DNA from: Alphaproteobacteria bacterium
GTDB taxonomy: Bacteria > Pseudomonadota > Alphaproteobacteria > JAEULC01
Length of the DNA: 8,381 bases
Reading direction: 5' to 3'
Assembly (NCBI GenBank): GCA_020851015.1
Contig: JADZDN010000295.1
Span: 1-8,381 of the forward strand
The notes under the pieces were generated by a model that saw only the letters and a list, made by a program, of their open reading frames with translations, made no database searches and was not told where the DNA came from. How positions within the stretch are numbered: position 1 is the first letter of the stretch; each line of letters opens with the position of its first letter. A program made the position numbers and the translations under genes. Of this stretch, positions 1 through 8,381 are shown one piece after another.

Positions 1-578
1 CGATCCTCAAGGTCTATGACGGGCGCTTCAAGGACCTGTTCCAGGAAGTGTTCGACAAGGAGTTCAAGGACCAGTTCAAGGCCAAGGGCATCACCTACGA
101 GCACCGGCTGATCGACGACATGGTGGCCTCGGCCCTGAAGTGGGAAGGCGCCTATGTGTGGGCCTGCAAGAACTACGACGGCGACGTGCAGTCCGACACC
201 GTGGCCCAGGGCTTCGGCTCGCTCGGCCTGATGACCTCGGTGCTGATGACCGCCGACGGCAAGACGGTCGAGGCCGAGGCGGCGCACGGCACCGTTACGC
301 GGCATTACCGCGACCACCAGGCCGGCAAGCAGACCTCGACCAACCCGATCGCGTCGATCTTCGCCTGGACCCAGGGCCTGTGGTACCGCGGCAAGTTCGA
401 CAATACGCCCGAGTTGCAGCACTTCGCCAAGACGCTCGAGAAGGTCTGCGTCGATACGGTGGAATCGGGCAAGATGACCAAGGACCTGGCGATCCTGATC
501 GATCCCAAGGCGCCGTTCCTGCAGACCCAGCAATTCCTCGACGCGATCGACCAGGGCCTGAAGAAGGCGCTCGCCTAG
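1..578 (+). CDS. icd: NADP-dependent isocitrate dehydrogenase, C-terminal part (5' end outside window)
   Basis: This is the C-terminal 191 residues or so of a type II (eukaryote-like, homodimeric) NADP isocitrate dehydrogenase. The enzyme oxidatively decarboxylates isocitrate to 2-oxoglutarate in the cytoplasmic TCA cycle. The reading frame is open from base 3 and ends at TAG 576-578. Recognisable family blocks, in order, are [11 protein letters not shown], the metal-binding stretch RLIDDMVA with its acidic residues, the near-invariant [25 protein letters not shown], the NADP-contacting [11 protein letters not shown], and [12 protein letters not shown]. The complete protein is usually about 400 residues, so roughly half is missing, cut only by the window edge. 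No frameshift is seen. It runs towards, and is convergent with, the long - strand array. A strong hairpin 46 bases after the stop may end its transcript. The identification is secure. Confidence 0.97.
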
Positions 579-859: not shown

Positions 860-1832
860 GGCTGGGCGTCACGCCCAGGAACCCGTCGATCTGCTGCCAG
901 ACCAGGGCCCGCACCGAATCGCGCTCGCGCAACAGCTCGTGCGCGGCGTCGGTGAACTCGATATGCGTGGCATTGGGCAGCTCCTTGGACACGCGCCGGG
1001 CGGCCTCGATCGACACCACGCGGTCGACGGCGGCCGCCAGCACCAGGATCGGTACGCGGATGTCGCGGCAATAGCCCGGGCGCTCGGTGGTCGCGATCGA
1101 GTGCTGGGCCGCGCGCAGCCAGCCGAAGGTGGGGCCGCCGATCGACAGTTCAGGGTTTCGCCCGATCCAGGCATGCGGTTCGAGGAATCGGACGCGGTCG
1201 CTCGTCAGGCGGTTGCCGTCGAACCGCACGCGCCGGCGATCGTAGTCGCGGGCGCCGAACACATAGGCGCGCGACAGGCCGAGCGCGCAGACGCCGCCGA
1301 CGATCGCGCGCGCCAGCCATCGCGGCAGGCGACCGTAGTTGATGTCGAGCATCGGTGACGAAAGCAGCACCACGTCAAAGGCGCGTGGATGGTCCTTCAG
1401 GTAGCGCAGCAGCAGGTGCGCGCCGAGCGAATGAGCGATCGCCAGGCGCGGTCGTGACCCGTCGCGCGGCGGCAGCACGGTATCGACCATGCGGCCGAGA
1501 TCGACCAGGTAGCGCGCGAAATCCGGCACGTGCACCTTGTCGTGGTTGCGCAAGGGCCGCGTCGACAGGCCCTGGCCGGACCATTCCATCACGTAGACGT
1601 CGAAGCCGCGCGCCAGTAGGTCGGCGGCGGTCTCGTGGTACTTCTCGATGAACTCGCCGAAGCCCGGCAGGACCAGCGCGGTGCCGATGCCGGGCGAACG
1701 CAGCGCGCGCCAGTGCATGTAGCGGATCGTGCCGCCGGCGGGCGAGGTCAGGCGCTGCGCATGGCCGCCCGGCGGCGACGGCGGAACCGCCGTCGTTTCA
1801 GGCCGCGCGGCGACCTTGTGCGCGGCCGTCAG
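825..1832 (-). CDS. Alpha/beta hydrolase, lysophospholipase / monoacylglycerol lipase type
   Basis: This is a serine hydrolase of the PldB/monoacylglycerol-lipase group (Hydrolase_4), probably acting on lysophospholipids or other acyl esters; the true substrate is unknown. Counting from the internal ATG at 1718, the family blocks are LPGFGEFIEKYHETAADLLARG (given here only as a landmark, residues about 18-39), WSGQGLS, the nucleophile elbow AHSLG with Ser97, SPMLD, the acid Asp232 in AAVDRVVS, and His260 in DAAHELL. The triad is therefore complete. The start is uncertain. The only ATG downstream of the preceding gene is at 1718; it has no ribosome binding site and would delete the expected first strand (SPAGGTIRYMHW). 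I favour CTG at 1832: it overlaps the upstream stop as CTGA and sits 8 bases after a GGGAG. ATG 1937 is a third option but would overlap the VWA gene by about 109 bases. No signal peptide is evident. It is the last gene of the array. Confidence 0.85.
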   Translation of the reverse strand: MTAAHKVAARPETTAVPPSPPGGHAQRLTSPAGGTIRYMHWRALRSPGIGTALVLPGFGEFIEKYHETAADLLARGFDVYVMEWSGQGLSTRPLRNHDKVHVPDFARYLVDLGRMVDTVLPPRDGSRPRLAIAHSLGAHLLLRYLKDHPRAFDVVLLSSPMLDINYGRLPRWLARAIVGGVCALGLSRAYVFGARDYDRRRVRFDGNRLTSDRVRFLEPHAWIGRNPELSIGGPTFGWLRAAQHSIATTERPGYCRDIRVPILVLAAAVDRVVSIEAARRVSKELPNATHIEFTDAAHELLRERDSVRALVWQQIDGFLGVTPSLSPPGPSAQGG

Positions 1833-3004
1833 CGGTTCAACTCCCGCATCGCCGCGTCGAGCCCGCCCAGGGTCAGTGGATGCATGCGGCCGGCGGTCGC
1901 GGCGCGCACCATCGCGATCGAGCGGTGATACGGCCATTCCGCCTCGGGCTGGGGATTGAGCCATGCGGCGTGCGGATAGGTGGCGAACAGGCGCGACAGC
2001 CACACCTCGCCCGACTCCTCGTTGAAATGCTCGACGCTGCCCCCGGGCTGCGCGATCTCGTAGGGACTCATCGTGGCGTCGCCGACAACGATCAGCTTCC
2101 AGTCCGAGGGATAGGTGTGCAGCACTTGCCAGGTCGGCAACGTCTCGTCGTGCCGGCGCCGGTTGTCGCGCCACAACCGCTCGTAGGGGCAATTGTGGAA
2201 ATAAAAAGTCTCCAGATGCTTGAACTCGGTGCGCGCCGCCGAGAACAATTCGGCGCAGGCCTTCACGTGCTCGTCCATCGATCCGCCGATGTCGAGCAGC
2301 AGCAGCACCTTCACCGTGTTGTGCCGCTCCGGCACCATCTTCAGGTCGAGATAGCCGCCGTTGTGCGCCGTGGAGCGGATCGTATCGGGCAGGTCGAGTT
2401 CGGTCGCCGCCCCCTCGCGCGCGAAGCGCCGCAGGCGCCGCAGCGCCACCTTGATGTTGCGGGTGCCGATCTCGACGTCGTCATCGAGGTTCTTGAACTC
2501 GCGCTTGTCCCACACCTTGACGGCGCGGAAGTTGCGGTTGCCTTCCTGGCCGATGCGGATGCCCTCGGGGTTGTAGCCATAGGCCCCGAAGGGCGAGGTG
2601 CCGGCCGTGCCGATCCACTTGCTGCCGCCCTGGTGCCGGCCCTTCTGCTCGGCCAGGCGCTGGCGCAGCGTCTCCATCAGCTTGTCCCAGCCGCCCAGCG
2701 CCTGGACCTGCTTCTTCTCCTCCTCGGTCAGGAAGCGCTCGGCCAGCTTGCGCAGCCATTCCTCGGGAATGCCGACCTGCGTGATGTCCACGCCTTCGAG
2801 CCCCTCGAAGCACTTGGCGAACACGCGGTCGAACTTGTCGAGGTTGCGCTCGTCCTTCACCAGCGCCGAGCGGCTGAGGTAGTAGAATTCCTCGACGTCG
2901 TAGCTGGCGCAGCCCGCCTGCATCGCCGCCATCAGCGACAGGTACTCGGTGAGCGAGACCGGGACACGCGCGTCCTTCAGGGCCAGGAAGAAGGCGGTGA
3001 ACAT
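1829..3004 (-). CDS. CoxE-like VWA domain protein, MoxR partner
   Basis: A 391-residue protein of the CoxE-like VWA family. These proteins work with MoxR AAA+ ATPases; CoxE with CoxD in CO dehydrogenase maturation is the best-known pair. The N-terminal part (about 1-120) is helical and begins MFTAFFLALKDARVPVSL, typical of the family. A conserved Gly-rich linker (TSPFGAYGYNPEGIRIGQ, about 136-153) follows. The VWA fold starts near residue 231, with a metal-site loop DIGGS at 238-242 and the later GDATMSPYE at 308-316. The loop is DxGxS instead of canonical DxSxS; to my recollection that is common in this subfamily. It is cytoplasmic, with no signal peptide. The ATG at 3004 overlaps the vapC stop by one base (TGATG), with only a weak upstream ribosome site, so translation is probably coupled to vapC. 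The cognate ATPase is at 4216-5079, separated by a phosphatase and vapBC. Confidence 0.9.
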   Translation of the reverse strand: MFTAFFLALKDARVPVSLTEYLSLMAAMQAGCASYDVEEFYYLSRSALVKDERNLDKFDRVFAKCFEGLEGVDITQVGIPEEWLRKLAERFLTEEEKKQVQALGGWDKLMETLRQRLAEQKGRHQGGSKWIGTAGTSPFGAYGYNPEGIRIGQEGNRNFRAVKVWDKREFKNLDDDVEIGTRNIKVALRRLRRFAREGAATELDLPDTIRSTAHNGGYLDLKMVPERHNTVKVLLLLDIGGSMDEHVKACAELFSAARTEFKHLETFYFHNCPYERLWRDNRRRHDETLPTWQVLHTYPSDWKLIVVGDATMSPYEIAQPGGSVEHFNEESGEVWLSRLFATYPHAAWLNPQPEAEWPYHRSIAMVRAATAGRMHPLTLGGLDAAMRELNR

Positions 3005-3414
3005 CAGGCGCCGACCGGCACGAGGCCGAATTGCGCCAACGCGGCGACCGCTTTGTGATCGAAGGTCCGCGTCAGGTCGCAGCCCCTCCGTTCGTTTGTC
3101 AACGCGATCACGCAGTCCGCAAAGTCGGTGTCGGAATGCCGGTACCGCTCCAGCGCGATCTCCACGAGGTCTTCGTCCTCGACAGTCAGGCTATCGGCAT
3201 GCAGGATCTTGTCGAGGACCCCGGCAACCTGGGCGCGCTCGATTCGATAGACGCGGGTCAGCACCCAGACGAATTCGCAGAGCACCACGCGATTGACAAA
3301 TCCGGGCGATTGAGGCGTGCACTCTGTCCGCAGGCACTGACGCGCGGCTTCAAGCTGGGCAACGTCGTCCTTCACGAAGAACCGCACCAGAACGTTGGTA
3401 TCGATGCCGATCAC
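3004..3414 (-). CDS. vapC: VapC-type PIN-domain toxin (ribonuclease)
   Basis: A 136-residue PIN-domain protein, the RNase toxin of a type II toxin-antitoxin pair. VapC toxins cleave tRNA or rRNA using Mg2+ held by a cluster of acidic residues. Here the cluster is Asp5 (in IDTNVLVRFF), Glu47 (in VLCEFVWVL), Asp97/Asp100 (in DTDFADC) and Asp119 (in TRTFDHKA), all in the expected order and spacing, so the toxin looks intact and catalytically competent. The start is GTG at 3414. It overlaps the vapB stop by four bases (GTGA), the usual coupling of antitoxin and toxin. The stop in turn overlaps the start of the VWA gene. Codons use more A/T in third position than those of the surrounding genes, suggesting a separate origin. 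The target RNA cannot be told from sequence. Confidence 0.93.
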   Translation of the reverse strand: MIGIDTNVLVRFFVKDDVAQLEAARQCLRTECTPQSPGFVNRVVLCEFVWVLTRVYRIERAQVAGVLDKILHADSLTVEDEDLVEIALERYRHSDTDFADCVIALTNERRGCDLTRTFDHKAVAALAQFGLVPVGA

Positions 3415-3680
3415 GATTTGCGCTTGCCCCGCACGCTCTTCAGGAACTGCTCGCCCGCTTCCTCGGCAATTGCCTCATTCATTTCGTCGATGGTCACCGA
3501 ACGATCCGCGCGCAAGAGGCCAGCCAGGGCTTCGATCTTCACGTTCTTCGCCACCATCCGCACCGTGCCATCGGGTTCCTTGACGAAGATTACGCGATCG
3601 CCCGGTTGTAGCTTCATATGCCGCCGGATCTCCTGCGGAATGGTCGTCTGGCCCTTTGCGGTAACCGTCGATTGGGACAT
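3411..3680 (-). CDS. vapB: VapB-type antitoxin, AbrB/SpoVT fold
   Basis: An 89-residue antitoxin with an N-terminal swapped-hairpin AbrB/SpoVT/MazE DNA-binding domain, about residues 4-46 (TVTAKGQTTIPQEIRRHMKL, then PGDRVIFV). The C-terminal half is helical and acidic (IDEMNEAIAEEAGEQFL) and is the part that usually wraps the PIN toxin. It neutralises VapC and, with it, normally represses its own promoter. The ATG at 3680 follows a strong GAAGGAG four bases upstream. It overlaps vapC by GTGA. Base composition is lower in GC than the neighbours, with many A/T-ending codons. A promoter and three 19-bp-spaced repeats lie immediately upstream and are the likely operator. Confidence 0.92.
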   Translation of the reverse strand: MSQSTVTAKGQTTIPQEIRRHMKLQPGDRVIFVKEPDGTVRMVAKNVKIEALAGLLRADRSVTIDEMNEAIAEEAGEQFLKSVRGKRKS

Positions 3681-3694: not shown

Positions 3695-3739
3695 TCCTTA
3701 CTTTGTATTTTATTCCTTACTTATCGTCAATCCCCTTAC
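3695..3739 (-). repeat. Three direct repeats at 19-bp period, candidate VapB(C) operator
   Basis: On the + strand CCTTAC occurs at 3696-3701, 3715-3720 and 3734-3739, spaced exactly 19 and 19 bp. The first two copies match over nine bases (TCCTTACTT at 3695-3703 and 3714-3722); the third is shorter (CCCTTACAC from 3733). The copies flank and interleave with the -35 and -10 of the vapB promoter, as expected for an autorepression site. Copy 2 overlaps the stop of the upstream phosphatase gene and copy 3 lies inside its coding sequence. Confidence 0.6.
3702..3730 (-). promoter_or_regulatory. Candidate sigma70-type promoter of vapBC
   Basis: Read on the - strand: -35 TTGACG (3730-3725, one mismatch to consensus), a 17-base spacer, and -10 TACAAA (3707-3702, four of six). 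It lies in the most AT-rich patch of the window. Transcription would start near 3695, leaving a short leader that carries the vapB ribosome site. The -35 lies within the last codons of the upstream phosphatase gene. Confidence 0.6.
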
Positions 3740-4196
3740 ACGCCCGCACATGCCCTTCCTGCTCCGCTGTCTCGATCGAGCCGGGCCGCGCGGCGCGCAC
3801 GGCGGCGATCGCCTGGTCCGGCGTCATGCCCAGCTCGACCAGCAGGCGCGCGGCGATCATGCCGGTGCGTCCCAGGCCGGCGCGGCAGTGCACGATGATC
3901 TTGCCGCCACCCCGCAGCGTCCTGCGCAGGACCGGGCCGGATTTGGCCCAGAGCTGCTCGAAGGCCAGGTCGGGCTCGCCCATGTCGGGCACCGGCAGGT
4001 GGTGCCACGCGATGCCGGCCGAGGCGACCATCTTGCCGAGGTCCTTGCTGCCGAGGAACATCAGCTCCCGCGTCTCGACCAGGGTCACCAGCGCGGTCAC
4101 GCGCCAGAAGCGGAAATCCTGCAGCTCGTGAAGCTGCGGAAAGGCGCTGAGCCCGATCGTGCCACCGCCCGGCGTCTTGACGACATGCGGCACCAC
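3717..4196 (-). CDS. Dual-specificity / protein tyrosine phosphatase-like protein
   Basis: A 159-residue cysteine-based phosphatase. The signature HCRAGLGRTG gives the CX5R loop with Cys104 as nucleophile and Arg110, followed by MIAARLLVELGMTPDQAI, the helix typical of cyclin-dependent-kinase-inhibitor-3-like and bacterial dual-specificity phosphatases. The upstream LPVPDMGEPD supplies the likely general acid Asp71. The conserved region is complete and no signal peptide is seen, so a cytoplasmic phosphatase of Tyr/Ser/Thr phosphoproteins, or of another phosphoester, is likely; the substrate is unknown. The start is GTG at 4196 (a second GTG follows directly), preceded by AAGGAAG at seven bases. 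It lies 19 bases after the MoxR gene. The 3' end carries part of the vapBC promoter and repeats. Its link to the NHase/MoxR/VWA genes is by position only. Confidence 0.88.
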   Translation of the reverse strand: MVPHVVKTPGGGTIGLSAFPQLHELQDFRFWRVTALVTLVETRELMFLGSKDLGKMVASAGIAWHHLPVPDMGEPDLAFEQLWAKSGPVLRRTLRGGGKIIVHCRAGLGRTGMIAARLLVELGMTPDQAIAAVRAARPGSIETAEQEGHVRACKGIDDK

Positions 4197-4215: not shown

Positions 4216-5079
4216 TCAGCTGCCGCGCTGGCGTCGCGCCAGGAAGGCCAGGCGCTCGAACAACTGCAGGTCCTGCTCGCTCTTCAGCAGCGCGCCATGC
4301 AGCGGCGGGATCACCTTGTCCGGGTCCTTGGCGCGCAGCGCCTCGGGCGGCAGGTCCTCGACCATCAGGAGCTTGATCCAGTCCAAAAGCTCCGAGGTCG
4401 ACGGCTTCTTCTTCAGTCCCGGCACGTCGCGCAGGTCGTAGAACACGTTCAGCGCGTCGCGCACCAGGTCCTTGCGGATGTCCGGATAGTGCACGTCGAC
4501 GATGCGCTTCATCGTGTCGCGCTCGGGAAACTGGATGTAGTGGAAGAAGCAGCGCCGCAGGAAGGCGTCGGGCAGTTCCTTCTCGTTGTTCGACGTGATG
4601 ACGACGATCGGGCGCCGCTTGGCGACGATGGTCTCGCGCGTCTCGTGTACGTGGAACTCCATGCGGTCGAGCTCCAGCAGCAGGTCGTTGGGAAACTCGA
4701 TGTCGGCCTTGTCGATCTCGTCGATCAGCAGGACCGGCGCGTCCTCGGCGGTGAAGGCCTCCCACAGCTTGCCGCGCAGGATGTAGTTGCGGATGTCGTG
4801 GACCTTCTCCTCGCCGAGCTGGGAATCGCGCAGGCGGCTGACCGCATCGTACTCGTAGAGCCCGTGCTGCGCCTTGGTGGTCGACTTGATGTGCCATTCG
4901 ATCAGGTTCTTGCCCAGCGACCGCGCGATCTCGCGCGCAAGCACGGTCTTGCCCGTGCCGGGCTCGCCCTTCACCAACAACGGGCGCTCGAGCGCGATCG
5001 CGGCATTGACCGCGACCATCAGGTCCTTGGTGGCGACATAGGATTCCGTGCCCGCGAACCGGGCCGACGCCGCTTTCAT
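4216..5079 (-). CDS. MoxR-family AAA+ ATPase (CoxD-like)
   Basis: A 287-residue AAA+ ATPase of the MoxR group. These cytoplasmic chaperone-like ATPases, with a VWA partner, activate metalloenzymes or other complexes. It has Walker A GEPGTGKT (38-45), Walker B VLLIDEID (116-123), sensor 1 ITSNN (161-165), an arginine-finger region AFLRRC (172-177), and the C-terminal helical lid with STSELLDWI (227-235). The length is normal for the family and all key residues are present. I chose ATG 5079, which gives the usual N-terminus (RFAGTESYVAT) and has GAGGGA ten bases upstream. ATG 5097, six codons earlier, overlaps the alpha-subunit stop as ATGA but has no ribosome site. It directly follows the NHase-like alpha gene; its probable VWA partner is at 1829-3004. 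Confidence 0.94.
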   Translation of the reverse strand: MKAASARFAGTESYVATKDLMVAVNAAIALERPLLVKGEPGTGKTVLAREIARSLGKNLIEWHIKSTTKAQHGLYEYDAVSRLRDSQLGEEKVHDIRNYILRGKLWEAFTAEDAPVLLIDEIDKADIEFPNDLLLELDRMEFHVHETRETIVAKRRPIVVITSNNEKELPDAFLRRCFFHYIQFPERDTMKRIVDVHYPDIRKDLVRDALNVFYDLRDVPGLKKKPSTSELLDWIKLLMVEDLPPEALRAKDPDKVIPPLHGALLKSEQDLQLFERLAFLARRQRGS

Positions 5080-5093
5080 CGAACCGTTGTCCC

Positions 5094-5741
5094 TCATGCG
5101 TTGGCGCGGGGCTGCGTGACGCCGATCATCGTGTCGCGCGTCACGATGGCGGCAAGCTTCTCCTCGCTCCAGCCCTCGGTCCCGGCCGGCCGCATCGGCA
5201 GCACGAGGTAGCGCATGTCCGCCGTGGAATCGTGCACCCGCACCTCGACATCGTCGCCGAGCACGGTGCCGAACTCGGCAAGGACCGCGCGCGGCTCGCT
5301 GACGGCGCGGCTGCGGTAGGGCCGGCTCTTGTACCAGTCGGGCGGCAGGCCCAGCACGTTGCGCGGGTAGCACGAGCAGAGCGTGCAGACGATCATGTTG
5401 TGCAGCCCGGGCTTGTTCTCCACGACGATCAGGCGCAGCGGCGCCACGGTGATGTCCAGCAGCTCCTCGGCGGCGGCGCTGCCATCCTTCAAAAGACGCG
5501 CCTTGTAGGCCGGATCGACCCAAGCCCGCGCCACCATGCGCGCGCCCAGCGCGGGGCTGCGCGCATCCATGCGCTCGATCTGCTCGCGGAACTCGTCGGC
5601 GGTGATGACGCCCTTCTCGACCAGCAGCTGGCGCATCGCCTCGGCCATCAGCGCATACTCGCCATCGCCCTTCTCCTCGACCGGCGTATGCGGATGGCCG
5701 TGATCGTGGTGGTCTTGACCGTGGGTATGCGGATCGGTCAT
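5094..5741 (-). CDS. Nitrile hydratase / thiocyanate hydrolase-type alpha (metal-binding) subunit
   Basis: A 215-residue homologue of NHase alpha, equivalent to SCNase gamma. This subunit holds a non-corrin Co(III) or Fe(III) centre that hydrates nitriles to amides or hydrolyses thiocyanate. The metal claw VCTLCSC has Cys119, Cys122 and Cys124; Thr after the first Cys is the cobalt-type signature (iron enzymes have Ser). The flanks RMVARAWVDPAYKARLL, LPPDWYKSRPYRSRAV, RAVLAEFG and RPAGTEGWSEEKLAAIVTRD (the last about 184-203) are typical of the family. The claw is followed by YPRNVLG, where typical NHases have YPWPVLG. The N-terminus has seven His within residues 5-18, a possible metal-handling tail seen in other cobalt-type alphas. 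ATG 5741 has a strong GGGGAGG site seven bases upstream. The two genes before it encode the split beta subunit. Nitrile, thiocyanate or another substrate cannot be decided from sequence. Confidence 0.92.
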   Translation of the reverse strand: MTDPHTHGQDHHDHGHPHTPVEEKGDGEYALMAEAMRQLLVEKGVITADEFREQIERMDARSPALGARMVARAWVDPAYKARLLKDGSAAAEELLDITVAPLRLIVVENKPGLHNMIVCTLCSCYPRNVLGLPPDWYKSRPYRSRAVSEPRAVLAEFGTVLGDDVEVRVHDSTADMRYLVLPMRPAGTEGWSEEKLAAIVTRDTMIGVTQPRANA

Positions 5742-5748
5742 CTGCCTG

Positions 5749-5755
5749 CCTCCCC
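5749..5755 (-). promoter_or_regulatory. Ribosome binding site of the alpha subunit
   Basis: GGGGAGG on the - strand, seven bases before ATG 5741. It overlaps the last base of the stop codon of the preceding beta C-terminal gene. It indicates efficient translation of the catalytic subunit within the operon. Confidence 0.75.
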
Positions 5756-6039
5756 TAAGCCGGTTCCAGCCAATGCTGGTAGATTTCGATCTCGACCGTG
5801 TCGCTCAACGGCCCGCGATAGACGGGCCACAGCTCGGTCTGGCGGAAACGCACGCGGTAGAGCGGCCGCGGCGGGTCGCCGGACAGTCCATAGGCGAGCT
5901 GCTCGGGATTCCCGAACGCGCCGCAGACCCGCTCGACCTCGCCGACATGGCCGCGGCAATACCACGGCGCGCGCACGTGGCCGGGCGGATAGGCGGCGCG
6001 GACGCGCACGCGGTCGCCCGGCTTGAACTCCGGCGTCAC
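5755..6039 (-). CDS. NHase beta C-terminal (SH3-like) domain as a separate subunit
   Basis: A 94-residue protein matching only the C-terminal SH3-like barrel of NHase beta. FKPGDRVRV opens the domain. PPGHVRAPWYCRGHVGEVER (residues 18-37) matches the conserved PPGHxRxPxYxRGxxG block, with Arg24 and Arg29 at positions that in NHase approach the metal claw. AFGNPEQLAYG, LYRVRF, ELW and the terminal YQHWLEPA are also typical. A whole NHase beta is over 200 residues; here its N-terminal half is the preceding gene. The same split occurs in SCNase and in toyocamycin NHase. The start is GTG 6039 in a GTGA overlap, with GGAGGAG just upstream, so it is a distinct, well-translated gene and not a frameshift remnant. 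It should assemble with the neighbouring alpha and beta-N products. Confidence 0.9.
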   Translation of the reverse strand: MTPEFKPGDRVRVRAAYPPGHVRAPWYCRGHVGEVERVCGAFGNPEQLAYGLSGDPPRPLYRVRFRQTELWPVYRGPLSDTVEIEIYQHWLEPA

Positions 6040-6350
6040 TTCTCCTCCGCCGCGCGCAATTTCGCCATGCGCTGGTCCAGTTCGGCCTTCGTCACCACCC
6101 CGCGTTCCTGCATCATCGTGGCGATCGAGTGCATCCAGCGCTCGTAGTAGCTCATGCGGTCATAGGCGCCGGCCGGCAGGGATTCGATGCCGCGCCGAAG
6201 CATGTCGGTGTTCATCAGCCGGCGCTTCTTGTCCGACAGCAGCACCATCATGGCGTCCACGCGCTTTTCCCAGGCGGCGTAGTCGTGCTCGGCCTTCTCC
6301 ACCTTGCTGGCGGGCAGGCCGCCCATGTCGTGGTGGGGGCGCGTGGGCAT
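6036..6350 (-). CDS. NHase beta N-terminal domain as a separate subunit
   Basis: A 104-residue protein matching the helical N-terminal half of NHase beta. HHDMGGLPA near the start corresponds to the conserved HDMGG of beta. AAWEKRVDAM, the LRRGIESLP block (Arg52/Arg53 near the position of an active-site beta Arg) and MSYYERWMHSIATMMQERG (66-84) followed by VVTKAEL are family landmarks. ATG 6350 starts only three bases after the alaS stop, with no strong ribosome site, so translation may be coupled to alaS. The 3' end overlaps the next gene by GTGA. Cobalt NHase activators (P14K/NhlE type) share ancestry with this domain, so a maturation role is possible, but the HDMGG motif and gene order favour a structural subunit. 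Confidence 0.88.
   Translation of the reverse strand: MPTRPHHDMGGLPASKVEKAEHDYAAWEKRVDAMMVLLSDKKRRLMNTDMLRRGIESLPAGAYDRMSYYERWMHSIATMMQERGVVTKAELDQRMAKLRAAEEK
6042..6048 (-). promoter_or_regulatory. Ribosome binding site of the beta C-terminal subunit
   Basis: GGAGGAG on the - strand, two bases before GTG 6039 (the GGAGG core is four bases away), inside the end of the beta N-terminal gene. It decides the GTG start and shows that the split is translated as two proteins. Confidence 0.7.
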
Positions 6351-6353
6351 CGC

Positions 6354-8381
6354 TCAGGCCGCCTTGGCCGTCGCCGCGAGCGCGGCCTCGATGGCGCTGA
6401 GCGCCGCGTCGATCTTGTCGGCATCCGGCCCGCCGGCCTGGGCCATGTCAGGCCGGCCGCCGCCGCCCTTGCCGCCCACCGCCGCCGCGCCGATGCGCAC
6501 CAGGTCGACGGCGCTGACCCGCTTGGACAGGTCATCCGTGACCGCGACGACCAGCGAGGCCTTGCCGTCGCCATTGGACGCCAGCGCGACCACGCCGCTG
6601 CCCAGCTTCCGCTTCAGCTCGTCGGCCATGCCCTTCAGCTCCTTTGCCGGCATGTCGCCGAGCGCGCGCGCCAGGTAGGCGATGCCCGCGACCTGGCGTG
6701 CCGCCGGCTCGACCGCTGCGCCCCCGCCGGCCGCGCCGCCCATCGCGAGCTGCTTGCGGGCGGCGGCAAGCTCGCGCTCGAGCTTCTTGCGTTCCTCCAG
6801 CAGCGCGGCGACGCGCGCCGGAAGTTCGGACGGCGCGGCCCTCAGCTCGGCCGCGACCCTCGCGATCACGCTTTCCTCCTCGTTGACGTAGTCGAGCGCC
6901 GCCTGGCCGGTCAGCACCTCGATGCGCCGCACGCCGGCGGCCACCGCCGACTCGCCGACGATCTTGAACAGGCCGATATCGCCGGTACGCTTCACGTGCG
7001 TGCCGCCGCACAGCTCGGTCGAATAGTGCTTGCCGCCGTCGGCCTCGTCGAGCGGATCGCCCATGGAGACGACGCGCACCTCCTCGCCGTATTTTTCGCC
7101 GAACAGGGCCAGCGCGCCCTTCTCGACCGCCTGCTCGGGCGACATCAGCACGGTTTCCACCGCCCCGTTGCCGCGGATGCGGTGGTTCACATCGGCCTCG
7201 ACCACGCGGATGTCCTCCGGCGTCAGCACCTTGGGATGCGAGATGTCGAAGCGCATGCGGTCGGGCGCCACCAGCGAACCCTTCTGCGTCACGTGGCCGC
7301 CCAGCCGCCGGCGCAGCGCCTGGTGCAGCAGGTGCGTCACCGAATGGTTGGCGCGCAGCTTGGTACGGCGCTCGTGATCGACGGTCAGCTCGACCGCGTC
7401 GCCGAGCTTCACCGTGCCGCCCGCGACCTTGCCCAGGTGGACATGCAGGTCGCCCAGCTTTTTCAGCGTGTCGGTGACCGTGACCACCGCGCCGCCGGCC
7501 GCCTTGATCGTGCCGGCATCGCCCATCTGGCCGCCGGACTCGCCGTAAAACGGCGTCTGGTTGACCAGCACGGCGACATTGGCGCCCGGGCCGGCGCTGT
7601 CCACCGGCTTGCCGTCCAGCACCAGCGCCGCGACCTTGCCCTCGGCGGTCTCGGTGTCGTAGCCCAGGAACTCGGTCGCGCCGAGCTTCTCGCGCAGCTC
7701 GAACCACACGCGCTCGGTCGCGGCCTCGCCCGAGCCCGCCCATTTCTTGCGCGCCTCGGCGCGCTGGCGCTCCATCGCGGCGTCGAAGCCGGCATTGTCG
7801 ACCGGCCGCCCCTGCCCCTTCAGCACGTCCTGGGTCAGGTCGAGCGGGAAGCCGTAGGTATCGTAGAGCTTGAACGCCACCTCGCCCGGCAGCGGCGCCT
7901 TCACGGGCAGCTTCGCGGTCTCCTCCGCCAGCAGCTTCAATCCGCGGTCGAGCGTCTGCTTGAAGCGCGTCTCCTCGAGCTTCAGCGTCTCGACGATCAG
8001 GGGCTGCGCGCGGCCAAGCTCGGGATAGGCGGCCCCCATCTGGCCGACCAGCGCCGGCACCAGCTTCCACATCAAGGGCTCGGTCACGCCCAGAAGGTGG
8101 GCGTGGCGCATCGCGCGGCGCATGATCCGGCGCAGCACGTAGCCGCGCCCCTCGTTCGACGGCGATACGCCATCGGCAATCAGGAAACAGGACGAGCGCA
8201 GATGATCGGCGATCACATTGTGGCTCGGCGCGCGATCGCCTTCGGCCTTGGTTTTCGTCAGCTCTTCAGACTTGGCGATCAGCGCGCGGAAGAGATCGGT
8301 GTCGAACACCGAGTGCACGCCCTGCAGCACGCAGGCGATGCGTTCGAGCCCCATGCCCGTGTCGATCGACGGCTTTGGCAG
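6354..8381 (-). CDS. alaS: Alanyl-tRNA synthetase (5' end outside window)
   Basis: The C-terminal 675 residues of cytoplasmic AlaRS, which charges tRNA-Ala and edits mischarged Ser/Gly. The frame is open to the right edge ([15 protein letters not shown] continues past the internal ATG at 8354), so about 200 N-terminal residues of a protein of roughly 880 are missing. The visible blocks are the end of the class II catalytic domain, then [20 protein letters not shown] (tRNA recognition domain), GESGGQMGD, the editing-site HSVTH (HxxxH) and CGGTH motifs that bind Zn2+, and a coiled-coil linker ([19 protein letters not shown]). It ends in the C-Ala (DHHA1) domain with [13 protein letters not shown]. 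All key motifs are intact. TGA at 6354-6356 is followed after three bases by the NHase-like genes, with no visible terminator or promoter between them. Confidence 0.97.

Follow-up and report, generated by a model that had tools for sequence, protein, structure and literature searches.

Our analysis points, with a probability that we put at about 0.88, to a cobalt nitrile hydratase (NHase) of the AnhDEA kind, whose genes were inserted a single time, in one lineage, next to an older MoxR-VWA gene pair adjoining alaS. The window, i.e. the whole stretch of 8,381 nucleotides analysed here (alphaproteobacterial contig JADZDN010000295.1), carries separate genes for the N- and C-terminal halves of the beta subunit (beta-N and beta-C) and for the alpha subunit, followed by the gene of a MoxR-type ATPase. 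The enzyme is unremarkable within a widespread family of three-subunit NHases of the cobalt type, and its split beta is shared by other loci; the ATPase appears to belong with the downstream VWA protein as an older pair located beside alaS and unrelated to the NHase. A tight operon with overlapping start and stop codons can suggest a machine that does not exist: in some of the enzyme-free genomes the ATPase gene is found directly behind alaS.

Organization of the locus

The genes on the (-) strand of the window follow the order alaS (cut), beta-N, beta-C, alpha, MoxR, a phosphatase-like gene, an AbrB/PrlF-like gene with a PIN gene, a CoxE-type VWA gene and a lysophospholipase-like hydrolase gene, while icd on the (+) strand converges on this run from the opposite side of the window (Table 1). 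The alaS stop ends 3 nt ahead of the beta-N ATG, the GTG start of beta-C overlaps the beta-N stop (by 4 nt), and a gap of 13 nt separates beta-C from alpha. The ATG of MoxR at 5097 and the alpha stop share the letters ATGA; a second MoxR ATG is present at 5079. The preliminary description of the window was right as to the separate beta-N, beta-C and alpha genes, their overlap, short gap and coordinates, and as to the MoxR start overlapping the alpha stop, and the same gene order was found in a close relative, G442. The NHase genes are probably co-transcribed with alaS. The MoxR protein possesses the Walker A (GEPGTGKT) and Walker B (VLLIDE) motifs, and its gene does lie near a VWA gene, three genes (phosphatase-like, AbrB/PrlF-like and PIN) standing between the two.

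Table 1. Genes and gene parts of the window discussed in the text.
Feature	Position	Strand	Evidence
beta-N (NHase beta N-terminal half, own gene; AnhD/ScnB-like)	6036..6350	-	PF21006, E 3.1e-19
beta-C (NHase beta C-terminal half; AnhE/ScnA-like)	5755..6039	-	PF02211, 4.4e-23
alpha (NHase alpha)	5094..5741	-	PF02979, 9e-81; TIGR01323
MoxR-type AAA+ ATPase	4216..5097	-	PF07728/PF00004; Walker motifs
Dual-specificity/tyrosine phosphatase-like gene, between MoxR and VWA	3717..4196	-	PF22784/PF05706
AbrB/PrlF-like antitoxin	3411-3680	-	PF15937/PF04014
PIN-domain gene	3004-3414	-	PF01850
VWA protein, CoxE type	1829..3004	-	PF05762, 1e-11
alaS, 3' part, cut by window end	6354..8381	-	ORF, name given from sequence
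icd, 3' part, convergent outer flank	3..578	+	ORF, name given from sequence

Four genomes of one order were examined, and three of them (G442, G401 and G289; the fourth is G441) have the locus. In G442 (locus L199) the alpha and MoxR proteins are 95% and 96% identical to those of the window, and the gene order from alaS through the hydrolase gene is the same; no icd match was found on its contig, which ends shortly past the hydrolase gene. G401 and G289 possess alaS, the NHase genes, MoxR, the phosphatase, VWA and hydrolase genes and icd. Since the three genomes share the arrangement (G401 and G289 without the AbrB-PIN pair), it is not an accident of one assembly. G441 harbors neither a MoxR orthologue nor alpha, and a search with alaS gave two weak matches only; this genome was left out as evidence because its assembly probably lacks the locus. 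The distance from the alpha stop to the MoxR match is 66 nt in G401 and 25 nt in G289, and the overlap of the two genes, present only in the window and G442, is therefore not a conserved feature.

Family assignment and predicted chemistry

The alpha subunit scores above the cut-offs of the NHase-alpha model TIGR01323 (256.3 bits vs 249.85) and of PF02979 (270.1 vs 27.2), and its Co-type metal motif CTLCSC (residues 119-124, then YPR) is present in all 112 aligned relatives. The NHase-beta model is matched in its first part by beta-N and in its last part by beta-C, and both halves exceed their own Pfam cut-offs. Taken singly, the halves (60.7 and 79.1) stay under the NCBIfam whole-beta cut-off of 152.2, because the gene is split and each half covers only half of the model; a whole-beta score is not required of split-beta members. 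Arg52 of beta-N (in DMLR) and Arg23 of beta-C (in GHVR) fall in columns occupied by arginine in 110 of 110 aligned relatives each, and we take them to correspond, by position in the Rhodococcus enzyme, to the two catalytic beta-arginines of NHases. Among solved structures, alpha is matched best by the Co-NHase of Pseudomonas putida (216.7 bits; thiocyanate hydrolase (SCNase) gamma, 181) and beta-C by an NHase beta (57.6), the SCNase chain being the lowest of the 25 rows for beta-C (33.7). For beta-N there was no decisive match: the SCNase score of 21.7 is inside the NHase range, and the highest-scoring row is a repeat protein that lacks a passing stretch.

Judging from the sequence, the most likely chemistry of the enzyme is nitrile hydration at a cobalt centre. 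The alpha subunit should bind cobalt through the CTLCSC claw, whose cysteines would be oxidised, and beta-N and beta-C would close the active site, contributing one catalytic arginine apiece, so that nitriles would be hydrated to amides. In addition, beta-N probably acts as a self-subunit-swapping and cobalt chaperone, as does AnhD of Streptomyces canus. A domain-model search of the ten window proteins scanned found no activator gene among them. The beta-N reading frames of G289 (L150, 3800-4388) and G401 (L149, 2885-3466) extend upstream into a lysine/alanine-rich stretch that is missing from beta-N of the window.

The split-beta clade

The search with alpha gave at least 8000 scored relatives, metagenomic ones with roughly 75-90% identity among them, and at least 593 stretches of the genome collection encode such relatives, the best 80 of which (L001-L080) were analysed. 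Beta genes are present on the contig in 78 of these 80 loci, and they are split in all 78, the order being beta-N, beta-C, alpha in 72 loci and beta-C, alpha, beta-N in 6; the other two loci, both at contig ends, have no visible beta gene. In a second set, drawn from 199 genomes that belong to another order, the 30 best loci are all split, 29 of them with the common order beta-N, beta-C, alpha, and a third set of 30 loci, taken from 398 genomes of the phylum, comprises 20 with a fused beta and 10 without. Weak cross-matches between beta-N and alpha were left out of these counts.

In the alpha tree, which has 146 rows (L069, the same record as L068, was dropped) and includes no SCNase sequence, one 100/100 branch parts 122 rows (120 split, 2 without beta) from 24. 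The smaller side consists of 20 fused rows, three solved fused-beta structures and L211, the sole row there that counts as split; when L211 is included, a single change on the tree no longer accounts for the split label. The window is placed inside the well-supported split clade: its alpha groups with those of its three kin from one small order (100/99) and then with L001 (95/87), in whose 14.7 kb there is no MoxR. The clade takes in Pseudomonadota, Streptomyces, Rubrobacteraceae, Chloroflexota, Binatota, Rokubacteria and SAR324. Alpha relatives were also found in 179 of 72,556 plasmid records; in the two of them that were examined, the unfused genes precede an aquaporin gene and the gene of a transporter of the nickel/cobalt type, which is HoxN/NixA in one record and CbtAB in the second. 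Three-subunit NHases thus form a large clade that extends across several phyla and onto plasmids, and few of its members, to our knowledge, have been assayed so far.

The order beta-C, alpha, beta-N was observed in L006, L008, L013, L014, L019, L028 and L096, which form one group in the tree, adjoining the Streptomyces member L007 with its common order. Inspection of L001-L080 by eye placed the NHase genes near an aconitase-like gene in 17 loci and near an acyltransferase-like gene in 17, possibly a stable chromosomal block; among the 22 clusters listed in the neighbour clustering of these loci, no common partner gene of the NHase was obvious.

Comparison with known enzymes

The closest parallel is the NHase of S. 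canus CGMCC 13662, which is encoded in the order anhD, anhE, anhA, with AnhD and AnhE matching the N- and C-terminal parts of NHase beta, respectively. The purified complex is reported to contain 0.84 mol of cobalt per mol, complexes devoid of AnhD or AnhE to retain at most about 4% of the activity of the full complex, and AnhD to act as a metal and self-subunit-swapping chaperone; the same report states that no activator gene was found and mentions TNHase of S. rimosus as another three-subunit enzyme (PMC7329996). The window shares with this system the gene order beta-N, beta-C, alpha and the assignment to NHases (with cobalt in S. canus and, by prediction, here), no activator gene being known beside the S. 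canus genes or seen among the ten window proteins scanned. The likeness is drawn from gene order and from the Streptomyces relatives L007 and L290 rather than from direct sequence comparison, and the window differs from S. canus in belonging to another phylum and in having its NHase genes between alaS and MoxR.

The Co-NHase of P. putida (PDB 3qxe) has a single beta gene and a separate activator. Its alpha subunit is of the same family as that of the window, with CTLCSC, and presumably the catalytic beta-arginines are common to both; however, the window lies on the other side of the 100/100 branch of the alpha tree. The proposal of the preliminary description that the genes represent a distinct three-subunit cobalt lineage is therefore borne out as regards the Co-type motif, the split beta and the separation from the sampled fused-beta NHases, but not as regards an unusual or uncharacterised nature: the lineage is very widespread, and the S. 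canus enzyme was purified and assayed (PMC7329996). Since a purified three-subunit NHase with the same gene order exists, the statement that the combination had not been characterised could apply at most to the pairing with MoxR.

Distribution of the MoxR and VWA genes

MoxR orthologues (at least 68% identity) were found in 98 of 240 alphaproteobacterial genomes, and the regions around all 98 were examined. In 88 of these loci a VWA gene follows MoxR in the same orientation at a distance of no more than 6 kb. The alaS gene precedes MoxR in the same orientation in 20 loci and stands nearby on the opposite strand in 7, and icd forms a convergent downstream flank in 9. NHase genes are present at two of the 98 loci, those of G401 and G289, both close kin of the window. 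Out of the 20 loci with alaS upstream, 18 are free of NHase genes; the alaS and MoxR matches abut within 10 nt in five of these 18, and a VWA gene is present in 14, together with a convergent icd in six, no VWA being within reach in the remaining four. The six NHase-free loci with alaS, MoxR, VWA and convergent icd represent the frame of the locus without the enzyme. The four NHase-linked MoxR proteins form one clade (SH-aLRT 99) amid NHase-free ones.

The reverse search gave the same picture: at E 1e-3 MoxR was found in none of the 80 NHase loci, which span 3.6 to 20.6 kb and reach at least 1 kb past alpha in 77 cases and 3 kb in 72, and the most sensitive setting gave a best E of only 0.65. 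In L055 a VWA gene lies 2.8 kb past alpha, without MoxR; we take this as chance. The MoxR protein of the window reaches no NCBIfam cut-off, its best score being 119 of the 475 bits of NF047784. The usual metal-site motif of VWA proteins is DxSxS. In the family of the window VWA protein this site (residues 238-242) instead reads D[VI]GGS, as seen in 85 of 90 VWA relatives.

Alternative interpretations

The preliminary description called the enzyme NHase/SCNase-like and allowed for an unusual substrate. The enzyme might hydrolyse thiocyanate or take another small substrate rather than organic nitriles, although we regard this as improbable. Thiocyanate hydrolase (PDB 2dd4), which we take to be a cobalt-containing relative of the window enzyme on the alpha/gamma side, has the same plan of a beta divided into two proteins, and its chains score within the range of the NHase chains for both alpha and beta-N: against the window alpha, SCNase gamma and the alpha of the Co-NHase 1ire reach 181 and 179.7 bits, respectively, and 236.6 and 233.6 in a second comparison. 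Despite this overlap, SCNase identity was rejected on the model cut-offs, for the alpha subunit, which passes the NHase-alpha model, scores below the cut-off of the SCNase-gamma model TIGR03887 (217 vs 291.45 bits), and NHases are the best matches of alpha and beta-C. In the 398 genomes of the phylum no SCNase gamma exceeded the cut-off; weaker matches occurred in 58.

The preliminary description credited the enzyme with its own AAA+ machine. On this view, members of this bacterial order would have taken over MoxR and VWA as a device dedicated to cobalt insertion or remodelling in an activator-less NHase, in the manner of NorQD or CoxDE; it would be the first AAA+ machine for the NHase family and would imply ATP-driven cobalt insertion. 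Such a role would fit the close ATGA overlap of alpha and MoxR, seen in the window and in G442, and the linkage of NHase and MoxR in every genome of the order that carries the genes (three of three). It would also fit the MoxR-VWA pairs that serve metal-centre assembly elsewhere (PMC9976466, PMC13036017, PMC3471820). However, the overlap is absent from G401 and G289, and the linkage is no stricter than that of the flanking alaS and hydrolase genes, which likewise survive in the order. The window resembles the CoxD/CoxE and NorQ/NorD systems in having a MoxR ATPase and a VWA protein, but differs from them in a MoxR below every NCBIfam cut-off and in the absence of a recurrent link, here to NHase. 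MoxR and alpha do co-occur in genomes beyond chance: 59 of the 240 genomes have both, 39 MoxR only, 26 alpha only and 116 neither (odds ratio 6.7, p 4e-11; alpha in 59 of 98 genomes with MoxR vs 26 of 142 without), where alpha stands for any matched NHase alpha, not split-beta alone, MoxR for a best E < 1e-100, and the statistic ignores kinship, genome size and completeness. As support for the machine this uncorrected co-occurrence is outweighed by the missing linkage: MoxR occurs widely and has no NHase genes next to it at 96 of its 98 loci, it is absent from the NHase loci searched, and 26 of the 85 genomes with alpha have no MoxR orthologue, 39 showing the reverse. Moreover, the S. canus enzyme is reported to mature without an activator gene (PMC7329996). 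None of the literature matches listed pairs NHase or SCNase with maturation by MoxR, AAA+ or VWA proteins. Given NHase genes at two of 98 MoxR loci, both in close kin, and MoxR at none of 80 NHase loci, the claim of an own machine is unsupported, the linkage being confined to one lineage, and we consider this reading highly improbable.

History of the locus

The reading that we prefer, a cobalt NHase inserted beside an older MoxR-VWA pair, implies that the NHase genes entered once between alaS and MoxR, presumably in the ancestor of one small alphaproteobacterial order. The phosphatase-like gene is present in the window, G442 (L199), G401 and G289 and in none of the other 96 MoxR loci. The AbrB/PrlF-like and PIN pair, which separates the phosphatase gene from the VWA gene both in the window (3004-3680) and in L199 (11176-11849) and is absent from G401 and G289, is probably a later, recent insert. 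The simplest and most likely history is a stepwise insertion into an old locus composed of alaS, the MoxR-VWA pair and icd: the NHase genes, the phosphatase gene and, later, the AbrB-PIN pair.
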